From Pseudomonadota bacterium (GTDB lineage: Bacteria > Pseudomonadota > Gammaproteobacteria > Steroidobacterales > Woeseiaceae): a stretch of 64,000 nucleotides of DNA. The DNA lies in the NCBI GenBank assembly GCA_027621915.1, contig JAQCAD010000001.1:1-64000 (forward strand), given 5' to 3'. A program made the position numbers and the translations under genes. This document shows, piece after piece, positions 19,414 through 25,056 of this stretch (the stretch's first letter is position 1; each line of letters begins with the position of its first letter). The notes beneath the pieces were generated by a model. The model was not told the DNA's origin and made no database searches. It saw nothing but the letters and a program-made list of their open reading frames with translations.

Positions 19414-21171
19414 ATGAAACGATGTATCTCGCTGTTTTTACTACTATTTATCCTGGGTTGCTCACCCACTGAGCGGCCCGATTCAGGTGCCGCGACAAGT
19501 CCTGAAACCGCGGCCGACGCCACACCGCGATCCTGGGCAAAGGGTGGCATGGCCACGGCTGCTAATCCGCACGCAGTCGCAGCAGCGATTGAAATGCTGG
19601 AGAAAGGCGGCCATGCCGTGGACGCTGCCATTGCCGCCCACGCAGTGCTCGGCCTTGTTGAGCCGCAGAGCTCGGGCATTGGCGGCGGTGGCTTTATGCT
19701 GGTGTACGAGTACGACGGCAGCGAACTGACGTTCCACGAAGGACGTGAGATTGCACCTGCCGGAGCCACCATTGATATGTTCATGCGCGATGGCGTAGTC
19801 ATGGAGTTCATGGAGGCGTGGCAAAGCGGCAAGGCGGTCGGCGTGCCGGGCGCTGTGGCGCTGTACAGAAGCGCCCATGATCAGCATGGCAAGTTGCCCT
19901 GGGAAGAAATTTTCGCGCCGGCCATCCGCCTGGCAACAGAAGGCTTCGTCGTATCACCGCGTCTCGCAGACTATCTCCCGAGGATGGCCCAGTTCAGTCA
20001 ACTGGCGAAAAACCCCGCGACAGCAGCCTATTTCTATCCAGGCGGCGAGCCACTTAAGGCCGGCGATCTCCTGAAGAACCCCGAGTACGCCGCAACGTTG
20101 ACGAGGATTGCGAAAGAAGGCATCAGCGCGTTCTATACAGGCGAGATCGCGGAAGCAATTGCTGCGGCTGCACAGGCGGAGCCAAACGGCGGCACGCTGA
20201 CGGCAGCGGATATCGAGGCATACAAGCCAGTGACGCGACCCGTGATATGTGGCGAATTTCGCGACTTGAGCATTTGCACGTCCTCACCCCCATCGTCCGG
20301 CGGCGCGCAAATCATGATTGCCGGCCTGTACGACCACCTGTCAGCGGACGCCACTAACCAGTCAGACAGGATCGCGGCTTTTGTCGACGCCCAGCGACTG
20401 GCTTACGCCGATCGCGATCATTATTTCGGTGACCCGGATGAGATCGACATCCCGCTGGATGACCTCCTGGATCCCGTCTACCTTAAGCACCGGGCGACCG
20501 AGCGGTTCGCACCAGGCGCCAACCCAACGCCTGGCGACCCGGGCCTCGTATTCGATCGGGAATCAACTGCATCACTTTGGGCACCGGATACGACGGAAGA
20601 AGCTGCCGGAACTACACATCTTTCAGTCATCGATAATGAAGGCAATGCCGTCTCCATGACGGCGACCGTCGAGGCGCCTTTTGGCTCCTCCCGCTGGGCA
20701 GCAGGATTTTTGCTCAACAATGAAATGACAGACTTTGCGCGCGAAGTGCCGACGGACGGGTCGCGTCTTGCCAATGCCATTACGCCCGGGCGCAGGCCCC
20801 GCTCGTCCATGTCTCCAAGCATGGTCTTTGACGACACCGGGAACCTGGTCATGGTTACAGGATCACCGGGAGGGAATTCTATTCCCGCCTATGTCGCCAA
20901 AACGTTGGTTGGCGTTCTCGACTGGGGCTTGTCCGCACAGGATGCGGTCGATCACCCCAATATTGTTGCCCGCGGCGAGACTGTCAGAGTCGAGATCAAC
21001 GTTGAACCGGGCCAGTCCATTGCAAATGACCTTAAGGAGCGCGGCTACAACGTACGGGAAAGCGACGGGGAAAACTCAGGGCTCCATATCATCGTGGTCA
21101 ATCAGGAGGGCCTGGACGGCGCAGCGGACAAGCGACGCGAAGGATTAGTTGCGGTGCCTGCGTCTAACTGA
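19414..21171 (+). CDS. ggt: Gamma-glutamyltransferase, lipoprotein
   Basis: A 585-residue gamma-glutamyltranspeptidase precursor. The autoprocessing site precedes the nucleophile Thr400 in AGTTHLSVID, giving a large subunit of about 399 residues and a small one of 186. Other landmarks are SGIGGGGFML, GREIAP and, in the small subunit, SPGGNSIP. It cleaves gamma-glutamyl bonds of glutathione or transfers the glutamyl group in the periplasm. The N-terminus ends FILGC, a lipobox, so the enzyme should be lipid-anchored rather than soluble. An AGGGA ribosome site precedes ATG 19414. It lies 96 bases upstream of the thioredoxin-flavin cluster, and both deal with thiol/redox chemistry. Confidence 0.93.
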   Translation: MKRCISLFLLLFILGCSPTERPDSGAATSPETAADATPRSWAKGGMATAANPHAVAAAIEMLEKGGHAVDAAIAAHAVLGLVEPQSSGIGGGGFMLVYEYDGSELTFHEGREIAPAGATIDMFMRDGVVMEFMEAWQSGKAVGVPGAVALYRSAHDQHGKLPWEEIFAPAIRLATEGFVVSPRLADYLPRMAQFSQLAKNPATAAYFYPGGEPLKAGDLLKNPEYAATLTRIAKEGISAFYTGEIAEAIAAAAQAEPNGGTLTAADIEAYKPVTRPVICGEFRDLSICTSSPPSSGGAQIMIAGLYDHLSADATNQSDRIAAFVDAQRLAYADRDHYFGDPDEIDIPLDDLLDPVYLKHRATERFAPGANPTPGDPGLVFDRESTASLWAPDTTEEAAGTTHLSVIDNEGNAVSMTATVEAPFGSSRWAAGFLLNNEMTDFAREVPTDGSRLANAITPGRRPRSSMSPSMVFDDTGNLVMVTGSPGGNSIPAYVAKTLVGVLDWGLSAQDAVDHPNIVARGETVRVEINVEPGQSIANDLKERGYNVRESDGENSGLHIIVVNQEGLDGAADKRREGLVAVPASN

Positions 21172-21267: not shown

Positions 21268-21741
21268 ATGAATTTCCGTAGTGCCGCTCGAAAGTTATTG
21301 CTCTTGTTGGCCGCATGCCTGTTGCTGGCCAGCGGCACATCCTTGCGGGCGGAACATTCGCTGGATCTTGGCGAATACCGCGGGAAGGTGGTCCTGCTGG
21401 ACTTCTGGGCATCGTGGTGCGTGCCCTGCCGCCGCTCCTTCCCGTGGATGAACCAGATGCAACAAAAGTATGGTGACAGCGGCCTGGTTATTATCGGCGT
21501 CAATATGGACGCAGAAGGCGGCGCCGCCCAGACCTTTCTCGATGATTACCCGGCTAATTTTAAAATCATCACCGACCCGGACGGGGCACTCGCGCGGCAG
21601 TACGACGTTATTGCGATGCCGAGTTCATACGTCATCGGTCGTGACGGCGAACTGGTAACGCGACACCTGGGATTCAAAGTCAAAAATCAGGGTGAATATG
21701 AATCGATACTGCTTGAATCATTAAGAACCGGTACGGAGTAA
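21268..21741 (+). CDS. TlpA-like periplasmic thioredoxin-fold protein
   Basis: A 157-residue exported thioredoxin-like protein. A signal sequence (about 1-28, LLLLAACLLLASG) precedes a short TlpA/AhpC-type domain with DFWASWCVPCRRSFPW, the redox pair being Cys-Val-Pro-Cys, and the cis-Pro loop IAMPSSYVI. It should exchange disulfides in the periplasm. ATG 21268 has GGAG 7 bases upstream. It is the first gene of a compact run with DUF4266, DUF3570 and ApbE genes, so one of those envelope proteins may be its client. Confidence 0.9.
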   Translation: MNFRSAARKLLLLLAACLLLASGTSLRAEHSLDLGEYRGKVVLLDFWASWCVPCRRSFPWMNQMQQKYGDSGLVIIGVNMDAEGGAAQTFLDDYPANFKIITDPDGALARQYDVIAMPSSYVIGRDGELVTRHLGFKVKNQGEYESILLESLRTGTE

Positions 21742-21745
21742 AAGA

Positions 21746-21958
21746 ATGCGAAAACTGATTATGACCATTGGAGGCCTGATGCTCGCGGGCTGCTCAACGA
21801 TGGGTGTCGAACCCTGGGAGCGCGATGTCCTCGCTAAAGAAGAAATGCGGCTGATCTCTGATCCGCTCGAAGTAGCGATCGATGAGCATATTTATTTCAG
21901 CAAAGAGGCCTCGAGTGGCGGCCGTGGATTTGGCGGCGGAGGCTGTGGCTGCAACTAG
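21746..21958 (+). CDS. DUF4266 small lipoprotein with Gly/Cys-rich tail
   Basis: A 70-residue lipoprotein matching what I know as DUF4266. The signal ends LMLAGC (lipidated Cys16); the mature part has the conserved VEPWERDVLAKEEM and a segment DEHIYFSKEAS. It then ends in GGRGFGGGGCGCN, with two closely spaced cysteines at the very C-terminus. The tail could bind metal, form a disulfide or attach to another group; none is shown. It begins 4 bases after the thioredoxin stop, whose GGAG overlaps the previous stop region, and is followed at 14 bases by the DUF3570 gene. Confidence 0.85.
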   Translation: MRKLIMTIGGLMLAGCSTMGVEPWERDVLAKEEMRLISDPLEVAIDEHIYFSKEASSGGRGFGGGGCGCN

Positions 21959-21972
21959 CCGCGTGGTCACTT

Positions 21973-23289
21973 ATGAAAACCAATAAACCGAAAACGGTGG
22001 CCGCAACTCTGGCGACCGCGACTTGCGCGCTGCTTGGAACGGGCGCCGTCACACCAGTTCAGGCCCAGGAAGAGCCGGGCTGGGCATTCGATACCGCGCT
22101 GCTCTATTACGGAGAAAGTGACAATCGCGTGGAGGACGTCAGCCTCAATTTTCTGGCATTGCGAAATTTTGTCGACGATCAAGTCCTTACCTTGTCCCTC
22201 GGCGTGGACACGCTGACCGGCGCAACTCCGATCGGCGCGATGCCGTACAACGGCCCACAAACTTTTACGAGCCCCTCAGGCAACGCCGTTGCCACACGAC
22301 CAGCCGGCGAAATTCCACTGGACGACACCTTCCTGGACACGCGCTACGCGTTGTCGGCCAGCTGGCAGCAGCCCTGGGGTCGGTTAAACACGGTCAGCGC
22401 GGGCCTGTCCGCGTCCAAGGAATATGACTACCTTCACCTCGGCGCGAACTTCAAGTTGTCGCGGGACTTCAATGAACGCAATACGACCGTCTCTTTCGGC
22501 CTCGCCTTTGCTGCCGATGAGGTGCAGCCTGTCGGTGGCACGCCGACTCCGCTGACGCCCATGGCCGAAGTTGGCAATCTTTCCAATCGGCTGGGCGACA
22601 AGTCGAAAGACGTTATCGACGTGGTGCTCGGAGTCACGCAGGTGATTAACCGCAACCTGCTGGTGCAGCTGAACTATTCTCTGAGCAATGCAGACGGCTA
22701 CCTGAATGATCCATTCAAGATCGTCAGCCTTGTGGATCCTATAACCGGTGATCCGATTGCTCGCGCTCCCACGCCGGGAGCTGATAGCCCATCCCATCAG
22801 TATCTGTTCGAAAGCCGGCCGGACACACGCACAAAACACAGCTTGTTTGGTCAGGCCAAGTACTACATGGGCGGCAAAGTGCTGGACGCATCCTATCGCT
22901 ACATGACTGACGACTGGAATATCGACTCTCATACACTCGACGTTCGCTACCGCTGGCCGATTGGCGACAACAGTTACATCGAACCGCACGTTCGGTATTA
23001 CACGCAGACCCATGCGGATTTCTATCGCACGAGCCTGGCAGGCGGCAGTCCGCTGCCGGTCAATGCGTCAGCCGATTATCGCCTTGGCGAATTCGATGCA
23101 ATTACGTTCGGTGTCAAGTACGGCTGGAAAGCAGAATCGGGCAACGAGTGGAATGCGCGACTGGAAATGTATACAGCCGATGGATCCGTACCCGGCGATC
23201 TGTTGATCGGCACAAATCAGGTGGGCCGCGATATCTATCCTGACCTGGACGCGATCATTTTTCAGCTCGGATATCGCTTCGGCAGGTGA
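21973..23289 (+). CDS. DUF3570 outer-membrane beta-barrel protein with predicted FMN-attachment motif
   Basis: A 438-residue DUF3570 protein. A signal peptide ends near VQA-Q (residue 31), followed by alternating amphipathic strands rich in aromatic residues and a C-terminal IIFQLGYRFGR whose penultimate aromatic pattern is typical of outer-membrane barrels. Residues 79-85 read D-T-L-T-G-A-T, which fits the Dxx(S/T)GA(S/T) acceptor motif used by ApbE to attach FMN to the last Thr, here Thr85 (codon 22225-22227). The apbE gene starts one base after this stop codon. I infer a flavinylated envelope protein; the redox partner is unknown. ATG 21973 has only a weak ribosome site, suggesting coupled translation. 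Confidence 0.87.
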   Translation: MKTNKPKTVAATLATATCALLGTGAVTPVQAQEEPGWAFDTALLYYGESDNRVEDVSLNFLALRNFVDDQVLTLSLGVDTLTGATPIGAMPYNGPQTFTSPSGNAVATRPAGEIPLDDTFLDTRYALSASWQQPWGRLNTVSAGLSASKEYDYLHLGANFKLSRDFNERNTTVSFGLAFAADEVQPVGGTPTPLTPMAEVGNLSNRLGDKSKDVIDVVLGVTQVINRNLLVQLNYSLSNADGYLNDPFKIVSLVDPITGDPIARAPTPGADSPSHQYLFESRPDTRTKHSLFGQAKYYMGGKVLDASYRYMTDDWNIDSHTLDVRYRWPIGDNSYIEPHVRYYTQTHADFYRTSLAGGSPLPVNASADYRLGEFDAITFGVKYGWKAESGNEWNARLEMYTADGSVPGDLLIGTNQVGRDIYPDLDAIIFQLGYRFGR

Positions 23290-23290
23290 C

Positions 23291-24193
23291 GTGACGAAAT
23301 CCGGGCGTTTAATTCGGATTTCGACAAGGCCTGGTCACGTCTCGGGCGCATTCGTTGCGATGGGCAGCCCGTGCGAATTGCTGGTTGAGTCAGGCAGCGA
23401 GTCTACTGCCAGGCAATTGACTCAAATAATTGCTGACGAGGCATGGCGAATTGAGGACAAGTTCAGCCGCTACCTGCCGGGCAACATTGTCGATCGTATC
23501 AATCGCGGCAACGGCGAGCCGGTTGAGGTGGATGAAGAAACGGCGAACCTGATCGATTTCGCAGCGACGCTTACTGAGATGAGCGAGGGGCTTTTTGACA
23601 TCACGTCAGGGGTGCTTCGCGAAGCATGGAAATTCGACGGCAGCGATAAATTACCGGACACGGCAACCGTTACTTCGATTCTCGAGAGAGTCGGCTGGCA
23701 CAAACTTGACTGGTCGCGACCTCTGCTAACTCTGCAGTCGGGCATGCAAATCGATCTGGGGGGTATCGGCAAGGAATATGCGGTCGACAAGGCTGCAGCA
23801 TTGCTGCGCGAGCTAACCACTGATTCCTGCCTGATAAACTTTGGCGGCGATATTTTCGCGACCGGCGTTTCGACCGATCGCAGGGGCTGGCAGGTTGGAA
23901 TCGAGGCACCCGACTCCGACGGCCGGATCGCCAGCAAGATCATTCACCTGAAAAACGGTGGTCTTGCGACCAGCGGTGACGCGCGCCGTTTCCTTTTGAA
24001 AGACGGGATTCGTTATGGCCATATCCTGAATCCGAAGACGGGCTGGCCGGTTACCAACGCACCGCGGTCAATCACTGTCGCAGCAGATACCTGCACGCAG
24101 GCTGGAATGCTCGCAACGCTGGCGATGCTTCGAGGGGCGGATGCCGAGTCATTCCTCAATGCTCAGGACGTAAAACACTGGTGTTATTTCTAG
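23291..24193 (+). CDS. apbE: FAD:protein FMN transferase (ApbE)
   Basis: A 300-residue ApbE-family flavin transferase, which uses FAD and Mg2+ to attach FMN covalently to Thr/Ser of target proteins outside the cytoplasm. Typical segments are FVAMGSPCELLVE, LFDITSGVLREAW, DLGGIGKEYAVDKAA, NFGGDIFATG, HILNPKTGWPV and the Mg-binding AADTCTQAGMLAT. The start is GTG at 23291, one base after the DUF3570 stop, so the two are co-translated. No obvious signal peptide or lipobox is present with this start, which is unusual for ApbE and leaves its location open. The 3' end overlaps the convergent arsR-type gene by 4 bases. Confidence 0.92.
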   Translation: MTKSGRLIRISTRPGHVSGAFVAMGSPCELLVESGSESTARQLTQIIADEAWRIEDKFSRYLPGNIVDRINRGNGEPVEVDEETANLIDFAATLTEMSEGLFDITSGVLREAWKFDGSDKLPDTATVTSILERVGWHKLDWSRPLLTLQSGMQIDLGGIGKEYAVDKAAALLRELTTDSCLINFGGDIFATGVSTDRRGWQVGIEAPDSDGRIASKIIHLKNGGLATSGDARRFLLKDGIRYGHILNPKTGWPVTNAPRSITVAADTCTQAGMLATLAMLRGADAESFLNAQDVKHWCYF

Positions 24194-24549
24194 TGACTGT
24201 CCAGTTCTTCGAGATCTTTTTGCAACTGGCTCAACAGACCTGCCGACGGCGCCGCGTAGGCGGAAATCCAGCGCTCATGAATGCGCTGAATCGGGCTTAC
24301 GTCGAGATAATTCCACCTGCAGCGGCCTTCCTTCCTGCTGATGATCAACCGGGCCTTTTCCAGCACCCCCAGGTGTTGCATGACGGTGGTTCGATCAAGG
24401 TGCGGCAGGTTCTTGCCAATGTCTCCGGTGGTCAGCGGTGCATCCCTTAAAAGATCCAGAATTCCCCGGCGATCGACGCTCGCCAGAGCCTTGAATACCA
24501 GGTCATCCTGAGCCAGGGCGCCTTTTCCCTTGTTTTTTTGCTTTGCCAT
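24190..24549 (-). CDS. ArsR-family winged-helix repressor
   Basis: A 119-residue ArsR-type regulator. The winged helix-turn-helix is visible as VFKALASVDRRGILDLLRDAPLT, with recognition helix DRTTVMQHLGVLEKARLI and wing ISRKEGRCRWNYL. There is no metal-binding Cys box, and the divergent SRPBCC gene makes this the common ArsR/SRPBCC two-gene arrangement. It probably represses itself and its partner through the palindrome at 24561-24576. It runs convergently into apbE. Confidence 0.9.
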   Translation of the reverse strand: MAKQKNKGKGALAQDDLVFKALASVDRRGILDLLRDAPLTTGDIGKNLPHLDRTTVMQHLGVLEKARLIISRKEGRCRWNYLDVSPIQRIHERWISAYAAPSAGLLSQLQKDLEELDSH

Positions 24550-24576
24550 TTGACAACCATGTTATATTTTTATAAC
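24550..24576 (+). promoter_or_regulatory. Promoter and overlapping palindromic operator for the ArsR/SRPBCC pair
   Basis: A consensus TTGACA (24550-24555) is followed at 15 bases by TATAAC (24571-24576), a slightly short but good promoter for the SRPBCC gene. A perfect inverted repeat GTTATA-TTTT-TATAAC (24561-24576) covers the -10 box. A dimeric ArsR protein bound there would block RNA polymerase in both directions. Confidence 0.7.
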
Positions 24577-24609
24577 GTATTTAGCAAGACCAGCAAAGGA
24601 GACGAAAAG

Positions 24610-25056
24610 ATGGCCCGGAACTATACAATTCAGACGAAAATCATGCGTCCTGTGGCTGACGTGTTTGACGCCGTTTTCTCGAAAGAGAAGATGTTGAACT
24701 ATTTCGTCGATGCCGCAAGCGGCGACTTGGTCGAAGGTTCGACCGTCAGGTGGCGTTGGGATCACTACGGCGAGAATCCGGTCGTTGTGAAGAAAGTGGT
24801 AGGTGACGAGTTAATTGAGCTCACGTTGAACTCCCGCGATTGGGATAAGACGAAAGATGAGGCCTACGACGTCAGGGTCATTTTTGAATTTTCAGTACTC
24901 GAGGACGGAGCGACCATGCTGTCCATCAGTGAAGAAGGCTGGAAGACGGATGCGGACGGGTTGAAAGCATCGCATGACAACTGCGGCGGCTGGCAACACA
25001 TGGCAATGTGTCTCAAAGCCTGGATCGAACACGGCATCGACCTGCGCCAGCCCTGA
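24610..25056 (+). CDS. SRPBCC (AHSA1-like) domain protein
   Basis: A 148-residue START/Bet v1-like protein of the AHSA1 type. It begins with the typical IQTKIMRPVADVFDAVFS, has WDHYGENPVVVKKV in the middle strands, and ends with NCGGWQHMAMCLKAWIEHG, the family's C-terminal helix. It probably binds a small hydrophobic ligand. The start at 24610 is set by AAGGAG about 8 bases upstream. Divergent pairing with an ArsR regulator suggests that the regulator senses or controls the ligand-related function. Confidence 0.88.
   Translation: MARNYTIQTKIMRPVADVFDAVFSKEKMLNYFVDAASGDLVEGSTVRWRWDHYGENPVVVKKVVGDELIELTLNSRDWDKTKDEAYDVRVIFEFSVLEDGATMLSISEEGWKTDADGLKASHDNCGGWQHMAMCLKAWIEHGIDLRQP

Follow-up and report, generated by a model that had tools for sequence, protein, structure and literature searches.

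A DUF3570 outer-membrane barrel with a predicted surface flavin and its signal-less ApbE partner in a Woeseiaceae genome

Gene clusters that combine a thioredoxin, DUF4266, DUF3570 and the flavin transferase ApbE were described by Meheust et al. 2021 (PMC8238504). According to the main text of that paper, ApbE flavinylates a DUF3570 protein of Chlorobium luteolum at two [ST]GA[ST] motifs. The assay was done in E. coli with the organism's own ApbE, the cloning being described there as similar to a strategy with truncated signal peptides, and most of the DUF3570 protein was found in the insoluble pellet. Here we analyse such a cassette at positions 21268-24193 of a stretch of 64,000 nucleotides (the window; contig JAQCAD010000001.1, assembly GCA_027621915.1) from a Pseudomonadota bacterium of the Woeseiaceae. 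It shares with the DsbD-type flavinylation systems of PMC8238504, as presented in the text, the same four genes, DUF3570 as the ApbE substrate and the C-terminal CxC of DUF4266. Unlike these systems, it has its DsbD on a separate contig (the only DsbD_TM match in the draft genome is on contig C43, the window being C34) and one [ST]GA[ST] motif instead of the two of C. luteolum. It is thus of the kind of the 316 clusters that lacked an adjacent DsbD in that study.

On balance, we think that the cassette produces a surface-exposed outer-membrane flavoprotein, and that its flavin mononucleotide (FMN) is put on the precursor in the cytosol before export through the Sec pathway. The first-pass annotation had listed four closely spaced plus-strand genes for an envelope cassette, and all four open reading frames (in the order thioredoxin, DUF4266, DUF3570, ApbE) were recovered together with their Pfam matches. 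The placement in the envelope did not hold for ApbE, which, like its relatives, has no export signal. The source genome is a 3.56-Mb draft, 95% complete, with one DUF3570 protein and three ApbEs.

The ApbE gene (23291-24193, plus strand, GTG start) encodes 300 residues that match PF02424 with 237.4 bits and contain the active-site Ser and His of the family. The protein has neither the N-terminal signal peptide nor the lipobox of canonical periplasmic ApbEs and is predicted to be cytosolic. For comparison, DUF3570 loci were taken from 275 sampled genomes of the class and sorted into two operational groups, type A (window-like) and type B, with profile score and locus number as the criteria. Controls were 30 ApbEs, namely the other two of the source genome and 28 taken singly from genomes that lack DUF3570. 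With a mean Kyte-Doolittle value of 2.0 over 12 N-terminal residues as the cut for an export signal, a hydrophobic segment was found in 0/46 type-A ApbEs versus 12/13 ApbEs of type-B loci and 25/30 controls. By eye, sub-cut controls have lipobox-like (L134, L123) or twin-arginine-like (L130, L131) starts or neither (L136), and a sub-cut type-B ApbE (L103, 1.76) looks signal-like. Nine partial ApbE hits were dropped (L063, L053, L135, L018 twice, L066, L005, L137 and L069); the identical ApbEs of L010 and L046 are both counted in the 46, and the lipobox flag there lies in the open frame upstream of the likely start. A missed upstream start that would add a signal was rejected as an explanation: when every ATG, GTG or TTG up to 90 codons upstream was tried, 0/46 exceeded the cut, the top value of 1.73 (L038) lying within the upstream open frame. 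In a second, phylum-wide sample of 249 genomes, 0 of the 11 distinct ApbEs near a barrel had an export signal (highest value 1.53). Two of these 11 come from outside the class, the ApbE of L140 is about 1 kb downstream of its barrel, and both L140 and L142 are truncated where the locus ends.

Type-A ApbEs also differ from the others within the domain. They contain 4.07 Cys per ApbE domain, compared with 0.77 in type B and 0.57 in controls, a content that fits a reducing compartment. The catalytic triad of Vibrio cholerae ApbE is Asp285-Ser241-His257 (PMC12052999), which maps to Gly272, Ser228 and His244 of the cassette ApbE with an equal spacing of 28 residues between His and the Asp position. 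Ser228 and His244 are conserved in 46/46 cassette ApbEs, and the Asp position (24104-24106, plus strand) is Gly in all 45 that have a residue there; Asp is found in 41/42 others. Glu162 (23774-23776, plus strand) lies within GGIGKE, where exported ApbEs read GKG, and is present in 46/46 cassette ApbEs versus 0/43 others. Both Glu162 and Gly272 recur in 9/9 full-length ApbEs of the phylum-wide sample. A tree of 89 ApbE rows places the 46 on one side of a branch with a support of 100/100. Judged by these sequence features, the cassette ApbE is strongly predicted to be a dedicated cytosolic enzyme.

ApbE was found in 75/75 genomes with DUF3570 versus 124/200 without it (Fisher p 4e-13, a value that ignores kinship among the 275 genomes). 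Counting loci with at least 600 nucleotides of downstream sequence, an ApbE follows directly on the same strand in 45/62 type-A loci versus 4/24 type-B loci. DUF3570 occurs in 75/275 and 17/249 genomes of the two samples and, judging by both, is not rare; the closest named matches to the protein of the window are from Woeseiaceae and other Gammaproteobacteria. Searches with the cassette ApbE yielded no relative on viral contigs and, on plasmids, only three distant Vibrio matches with 27% identity.

The DUF3570 gene (21973-23289, plus strand) encodes 438 residues that match PF12094 with 423.5 bits (cut-off 25), the match covering profile positions 2-427 of 427. AlphaFold, supplied with an alignment of 23 mature sequences of the family, gave a model with 16 strands, a predicted local distance difference test (pLDDT) of 92.2 and a predicted TM-score (pTM) of 0.86; the remaining four models average 78-83. 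In the model, the loops after strands 3, 7, 9, 13 and 15 have 40, 25, 42, 27 and 19 residues, and three short loops of 5, 2 and 4 residues follow strands 1, 5 and 11 on this side. On the opposite side, seven of seven even-to-odd turns have 2-5 residues. Barrels of this kind usually have long loops outside the cell and short turns on the periplasmic side, and the side of Thr85 was therefore assigned as extracellular. VIA matches to known outer-membrane barrels run end to end: the PgaA barrel 4y25 (Z 20.1, 258 aligned residues, 3.9 Å root mean square deviation), CymA 4d5d (Z 18.3, 270 aligned, 3.8 Å) and OmpG 2iwv (Z 17.3, 262 aligned, 4.2 Å). Foldseek matches to such barrels have modest TM-scores by query length (0.32-0.47), and a sequence search returned no DUF3570 relative of known structure. 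With a signal peptide and an even number of amphipathic strands that close a barrel, the predicted structure supports a 16-strand outer-membrane barrel.

Thr85 is located four residues past strand 3 in the modelled b3-b4 loop, near the start of its 40 residues, and is predicted to sit at the extracellular end of the barrel. The first-pass annotation had proposed a barrel and, as the site of the flavin, an outer-membrane or periplasmic carrier; the model and the structural matches bear out the barrel, and of the two locations they favour the outer membrane, with the strand order placing Thr85 outside. A position in the membrane-facing wall, named there as a counter-argument, is unlikely, as the strand assignment puts the residue in a loop. 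Conservation was counted over 21 of the 23 alignment rows, excluding the short rows L045 and L052. Near-invariant positions make up 34/164 in extracellular loops, 27/103 in the outer halves of strands, 15/109 in the inner halves and 1/25 in periplasmic turns, and thus favour the outer half of the modelled barrel.

The target motif D79-T-L-T-G-A-T85 (22207-22227, plus strand), reported earlier at residues 79-85, is the single match to D-x-x-[ST]-G-A-[ST] in the protein. A chance match was rejected, as only 0.0059 are expected from the composition. The aligned acceptor is Ser or Thr in 65/65 ungapped type-A sequences (window counted) and the exact motif is found in 52/65, so the check for conservation alongside ApbE did not yield the outcome that would speak against flavinylation. 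A second [ST]GA[ST] follows about 20 residues further on in L065, L066 and L069. Flavinylation of the barrel by ApbE at Thr85, the central proposal of the first-pass annotation, is well supported by this conservation and by the C. luteolum homologue, yet it is already published in substance (text of PMC8238504).

The predicted signal peptide of the barrel (residues 1-31, 21973-22065, plus strand; cleavage site by eye) is weakly hydrophobic and contains no twin arginine. Its peak hydrophobicity over 12 residues is 1.77, close to the median of type-A DUF3570 signals (1.78, n=63, 6 at or over 2.0). Type-B DUF3570 signals have a median of 2.36 (n=25, 21 over 2.0), and the thioredoxin signals from type-A clusters one of 2.58 (n=52, 49 over 2.0). 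Type-A DUF3570 signals are weaker than both (p 1e-9 and p 9e-18, respectively, values that ignore kinship); four DUF3570 rows were set aside or counted with care (L045, L024, L062, L064). Export by the twin-arginine (Tat) route was rejected, with no strict twin-arginine match among the DUF3570 N-termini examined and cytosolic folding of a barrel being unexpected. Signal hydrophobicity decides between translationally coupled and uncoupled export, according to the part of PMC5963308 consulted, and a weak signal may thus direct the barrel to the uncoupled route and leave time for modification.

The two upstream genes of the cassette encode thiol proteins. The first (21268-21741, plus strand) specifies a TlpA/ResA-like exported thioredoxin of 157 residues with a hydrophobic N-terminal signal, CVPC at nucleotides 21418-21429, and Pfam matches to Redoxin (77.3 bits) and AhpC-TSA (75.5 bits). 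The second (21746-21958, plus strand) encodes a small DUF4266 lipoprotein of 70 residues (PF14086, 80.5 bits) with an LAGC lipobox and a Gly-rich tail that ends in CGCN, the CGC lying at 21944-21952. A C-terminal CxC was found in 89/89 DUF4266 sequences (window counted), CGCN in 82. Because of this invariant Cys pair, a link between the flavin barrel and thiol chemistry is plausible. In the finished barrel, FMN probably exchanges electrons with the Cys-Gly-Cys end of DUF4266, whose tail, to judge by its Gly-rich composition, could extend from the periplasm into the barrel. The DUF3570 frame often seems to start with MQL close to where the DUF4266 frame ends, for example in L006, L010 and L019, which suggests translational coupling.

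Taken together, the following sequence of events can be proposed. Cytosolic ApbE would attach FMN, taken from cytosolic flavin adenine dinucleotide (FAD), to Thr85 while the DUF3570 precursor is still unfolded, a timing that follows from the predicted location of the enzyme. The weak signal would hold the precursor on the slower, uncoupled SecA route long enough for this modification, after which the flavinylated chain would pass through Sec and fold into the outer membrane. The resulting 16-strand barrel would carry FMN-Thr85 in a conserved loop at its modelled extracellular end. Electrons would most likely run from DsbD via thioredoxin and the Cys-Gly-Cys end of DUF4266 to FMN and on to an acceptor outside, although this direction could be reversed. 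If true, this would be an instance of a covalent redox cofactor that is acquired in the cytosol and crosses Sec together with a still unfolded outer-membrane protein, and a surface flavin on a barrel would constitute a haem-free link between periplasmic thiols and extracellular acceptors. A wider generalization is more tentative and, to our minds, possible rather than probable: that a whole group of cytosolic ApbEs, its active site remodelled by the changes Asp to Gly and Gly to Glu, flavinylates barrel precursors before Sec. The product would be a haem-free redox conduit, with electrons passing through the barrel between the Cys-Gly-Cys arm of a lipoprotein and a surface flavin. ApbE is typically membrane-anchored and periplasmic, as stated in the text of PMC12052999, and a periplasmic ApbE raises the question of how FAD is supplied to that compartment. 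A cytosolic ApbE with an outer-membrane substrate would sidestep this problem; in that case, a chain with FMN already bound is expected to pass through Sec.

Several points weigh against attachment before export. The scheme assumes that FMN-Thr can pass SecYEG; a study by Bonardi and others, cited in two reviews, reportedly dealt with bulky conjugates and the SecYEG pore. In the phylum-wide sample, 3/11 barrels beside a signal-less ApbE have stronger signals that peak at 2.04 to 2.38 (L143, L145, L148), so the weak barrel signal is usual rather than universal. Four further ApbE matches in control genomes were left out of the comparison. The cassette ApbE lacks the triad Asp, and its activity is not to be assumed. 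The two other ApbEs of the genome carry export signals and could modify the barrel in the periplasm, leaving the signal-less enzyme inactive or with a cytosolic target, for which there is precedent in cytosolic ApbEs with intracellular targets such as that of Klebsiella fumarate reductase (text of PMC12052999). This division of labour appears improbable to us, since the enzyme kept directly beside the barrel (45/62 type-A loci) is the signal-less one, since Ser228 and His244 in 46/46 together with an invariant new Glu are unlike a decaying enzyme, and since the DUF3570 protein of PMC8238504 was assayed with its cognate ApbE. In the 17/62 type-A loci that have no ApbE directly downstream, another point on the opposing side, a follow-up covered 14 genomes representing 16 of the 17 loci (L052, the 17th, was left out). 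A signal-less ApbE of the Gly272 type was found somewhere in 13/14 of them, 12 with Glu162 and one with Lys, and G005 yielded no ApbE besides it. Five of the 13 (G083, G095, G117, G204, G206) were already within the 46, so that 8/9 are new; neither these five repeats nor the three stronger barrel signals have a bearing on the enzyme's location. The opposite case is G050, which combines a type-A barrel with the degenerate motif DVMTGPS and a single exported ApbE.

The site and the role of the flavin can be doubted as well. Type-B barrels, mostly without an adjacent ApbE, retain the aligned site as D-x-x-[ST]-S-A-[ST] in 19/25 sequences, and part of its conservation may thus be structural. As the motif is located at a strand end in the model, DxxTGAT could even be an unmodified turn that closes strand b3 in this organism. 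We consider this very improbable in view of the exact motif and acceptor counts in type A, the presence of ApbE in 75/75 DUF3570 genomes and the experimental flavinylation of a homologue at such motifs (text of PMC8238504). It is less far-fetched, but still unlikely, that the barrel serves mainly to import or export metal. FMN at its mouth would then reduce Fe(III) or Cu(II), and the tail with its CGC would bind metal instead of relaying electrons. The VIT1 iron transporter was reported in 25 DUF3570 clusters (text of PMC8238504), metal binding by the C-terminal CxC of DUF4266 is possible, the 77 near-invariant barrel residues include 7 Arg and 4 Lys, and the other strand carries, just downstream, a gene for a regulator of the ArsR family, to which some metal sensors belong. 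However, this gene pairs with an AHSA1 gene, no metal transporter is among the four flanking genes scanned (gamma-glutamyltranspeptidase, ArsR-type regulator, AHSA1 protein, aminotransferase), and a comparison of shared neighbours over 32 loci, made from frames without Pfam annotation, revealed no evident partner beyond the four core genes; each family on its list was either an antisense frame of a core gene or confined to a few closely related loci. We thus retain, as the reading we favour, an exported electron-transferring barrel that receives its FMN in the cytosol.

Some further observations concern the surroundings of the cassette and the variety of DUF3570 loci. Immediately upstream in the window is the gamma-glutamyltranspeptidase gene (19414-21171), and immediately downstream are the ArsR-type regulator on the opposite strand and the AHSA1-family gene (24190-25056). 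Double-length DUF3570 frames of 904-920 residues were noticed in L005 (1366-4125), L012 (430-3141) and L142, and genome G095 has five DUF3570 matches (contigs C4, C52, C94, C102, C149), with only two ApbEs found. That type-B barrels have simply lost their ApbE was rejected, because all 75 DUF3570 genomes contain one and in several an exported ApbE lies kilobases off, on the same strand in L096, L098, L099, L100 and L104. Among type-B barrels with an ApbE in the fetched stretch, the site reads S-G-A-S in L096, L097, L099 and L100, and S-S-A-S or T-S-A-S in L101, L102, L103 and L104; the Gly does not simply track ApbE. In L096 (1876-16979) and L100 (3-12774), the type-B DUF3570 gene is part of a larger conserved run, with a similar order in L098, L099 and L104, that comprises an exported ApbE, a protein of about 950 residues, small barrels, a thioredoxin, DUF4266, DUF3570 and a TPR protein. 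The protein of about 950 residues contains hydrazine-synthase-alpha-like, PD40 and CxxCH stretches (Pfam was run on ten L096 proteins only).

Compared with the known systems, the cassette ApbE belongs to the same family (PF02424) as the periplasmic V. cholerae ApbE and Listeria FmnB and has kept Ser228, His244 and the GG-x-x-K region. It is unlike them in the missing signal, the change of the triad Asp to Gly and of a Gly to Glu162, the roughly four Cys per domain and the separate branch in the tree. The cytosolic ApbEs of Klebsiella fumarate reductase and of trypanosomatids likewise act inside the cell, a likeness in location and not one drawn from sequence comparison, but their targets are intracellular, whereas the target next to the cassette enzyme is an exported outer-membrane protein. 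In porin-cytochrome conduits of the MtrCAB type, a barrel helps electrons across the outer membrane. The cassette would resemble these by analogy only, as it is haem-free, has its predicted flavin bound covalently to the barrel and would use thiol proteins as the periplasmic partner. In the text of PMC8238504 (figures and supplements aside), neither "barrel" nor "porin" appears, and "outer membrane" is used once, for siderophore transporters; a later paper from the same group models other flavinylated domains, its text being without "3570". The open-licence literature, again by its text without figures or supplements, yielded nothing on the position of the DUF3570 flavin or on a signal-less partner ApbE. 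The cassette type and the flavinylated DUF3570 protein are thus known, and what the present locus contributes beyond the published text is the predicted extracellular site of the flavin, a signal-less group of ApbEs with an altered active site, and the usually weak signal of the barrel.

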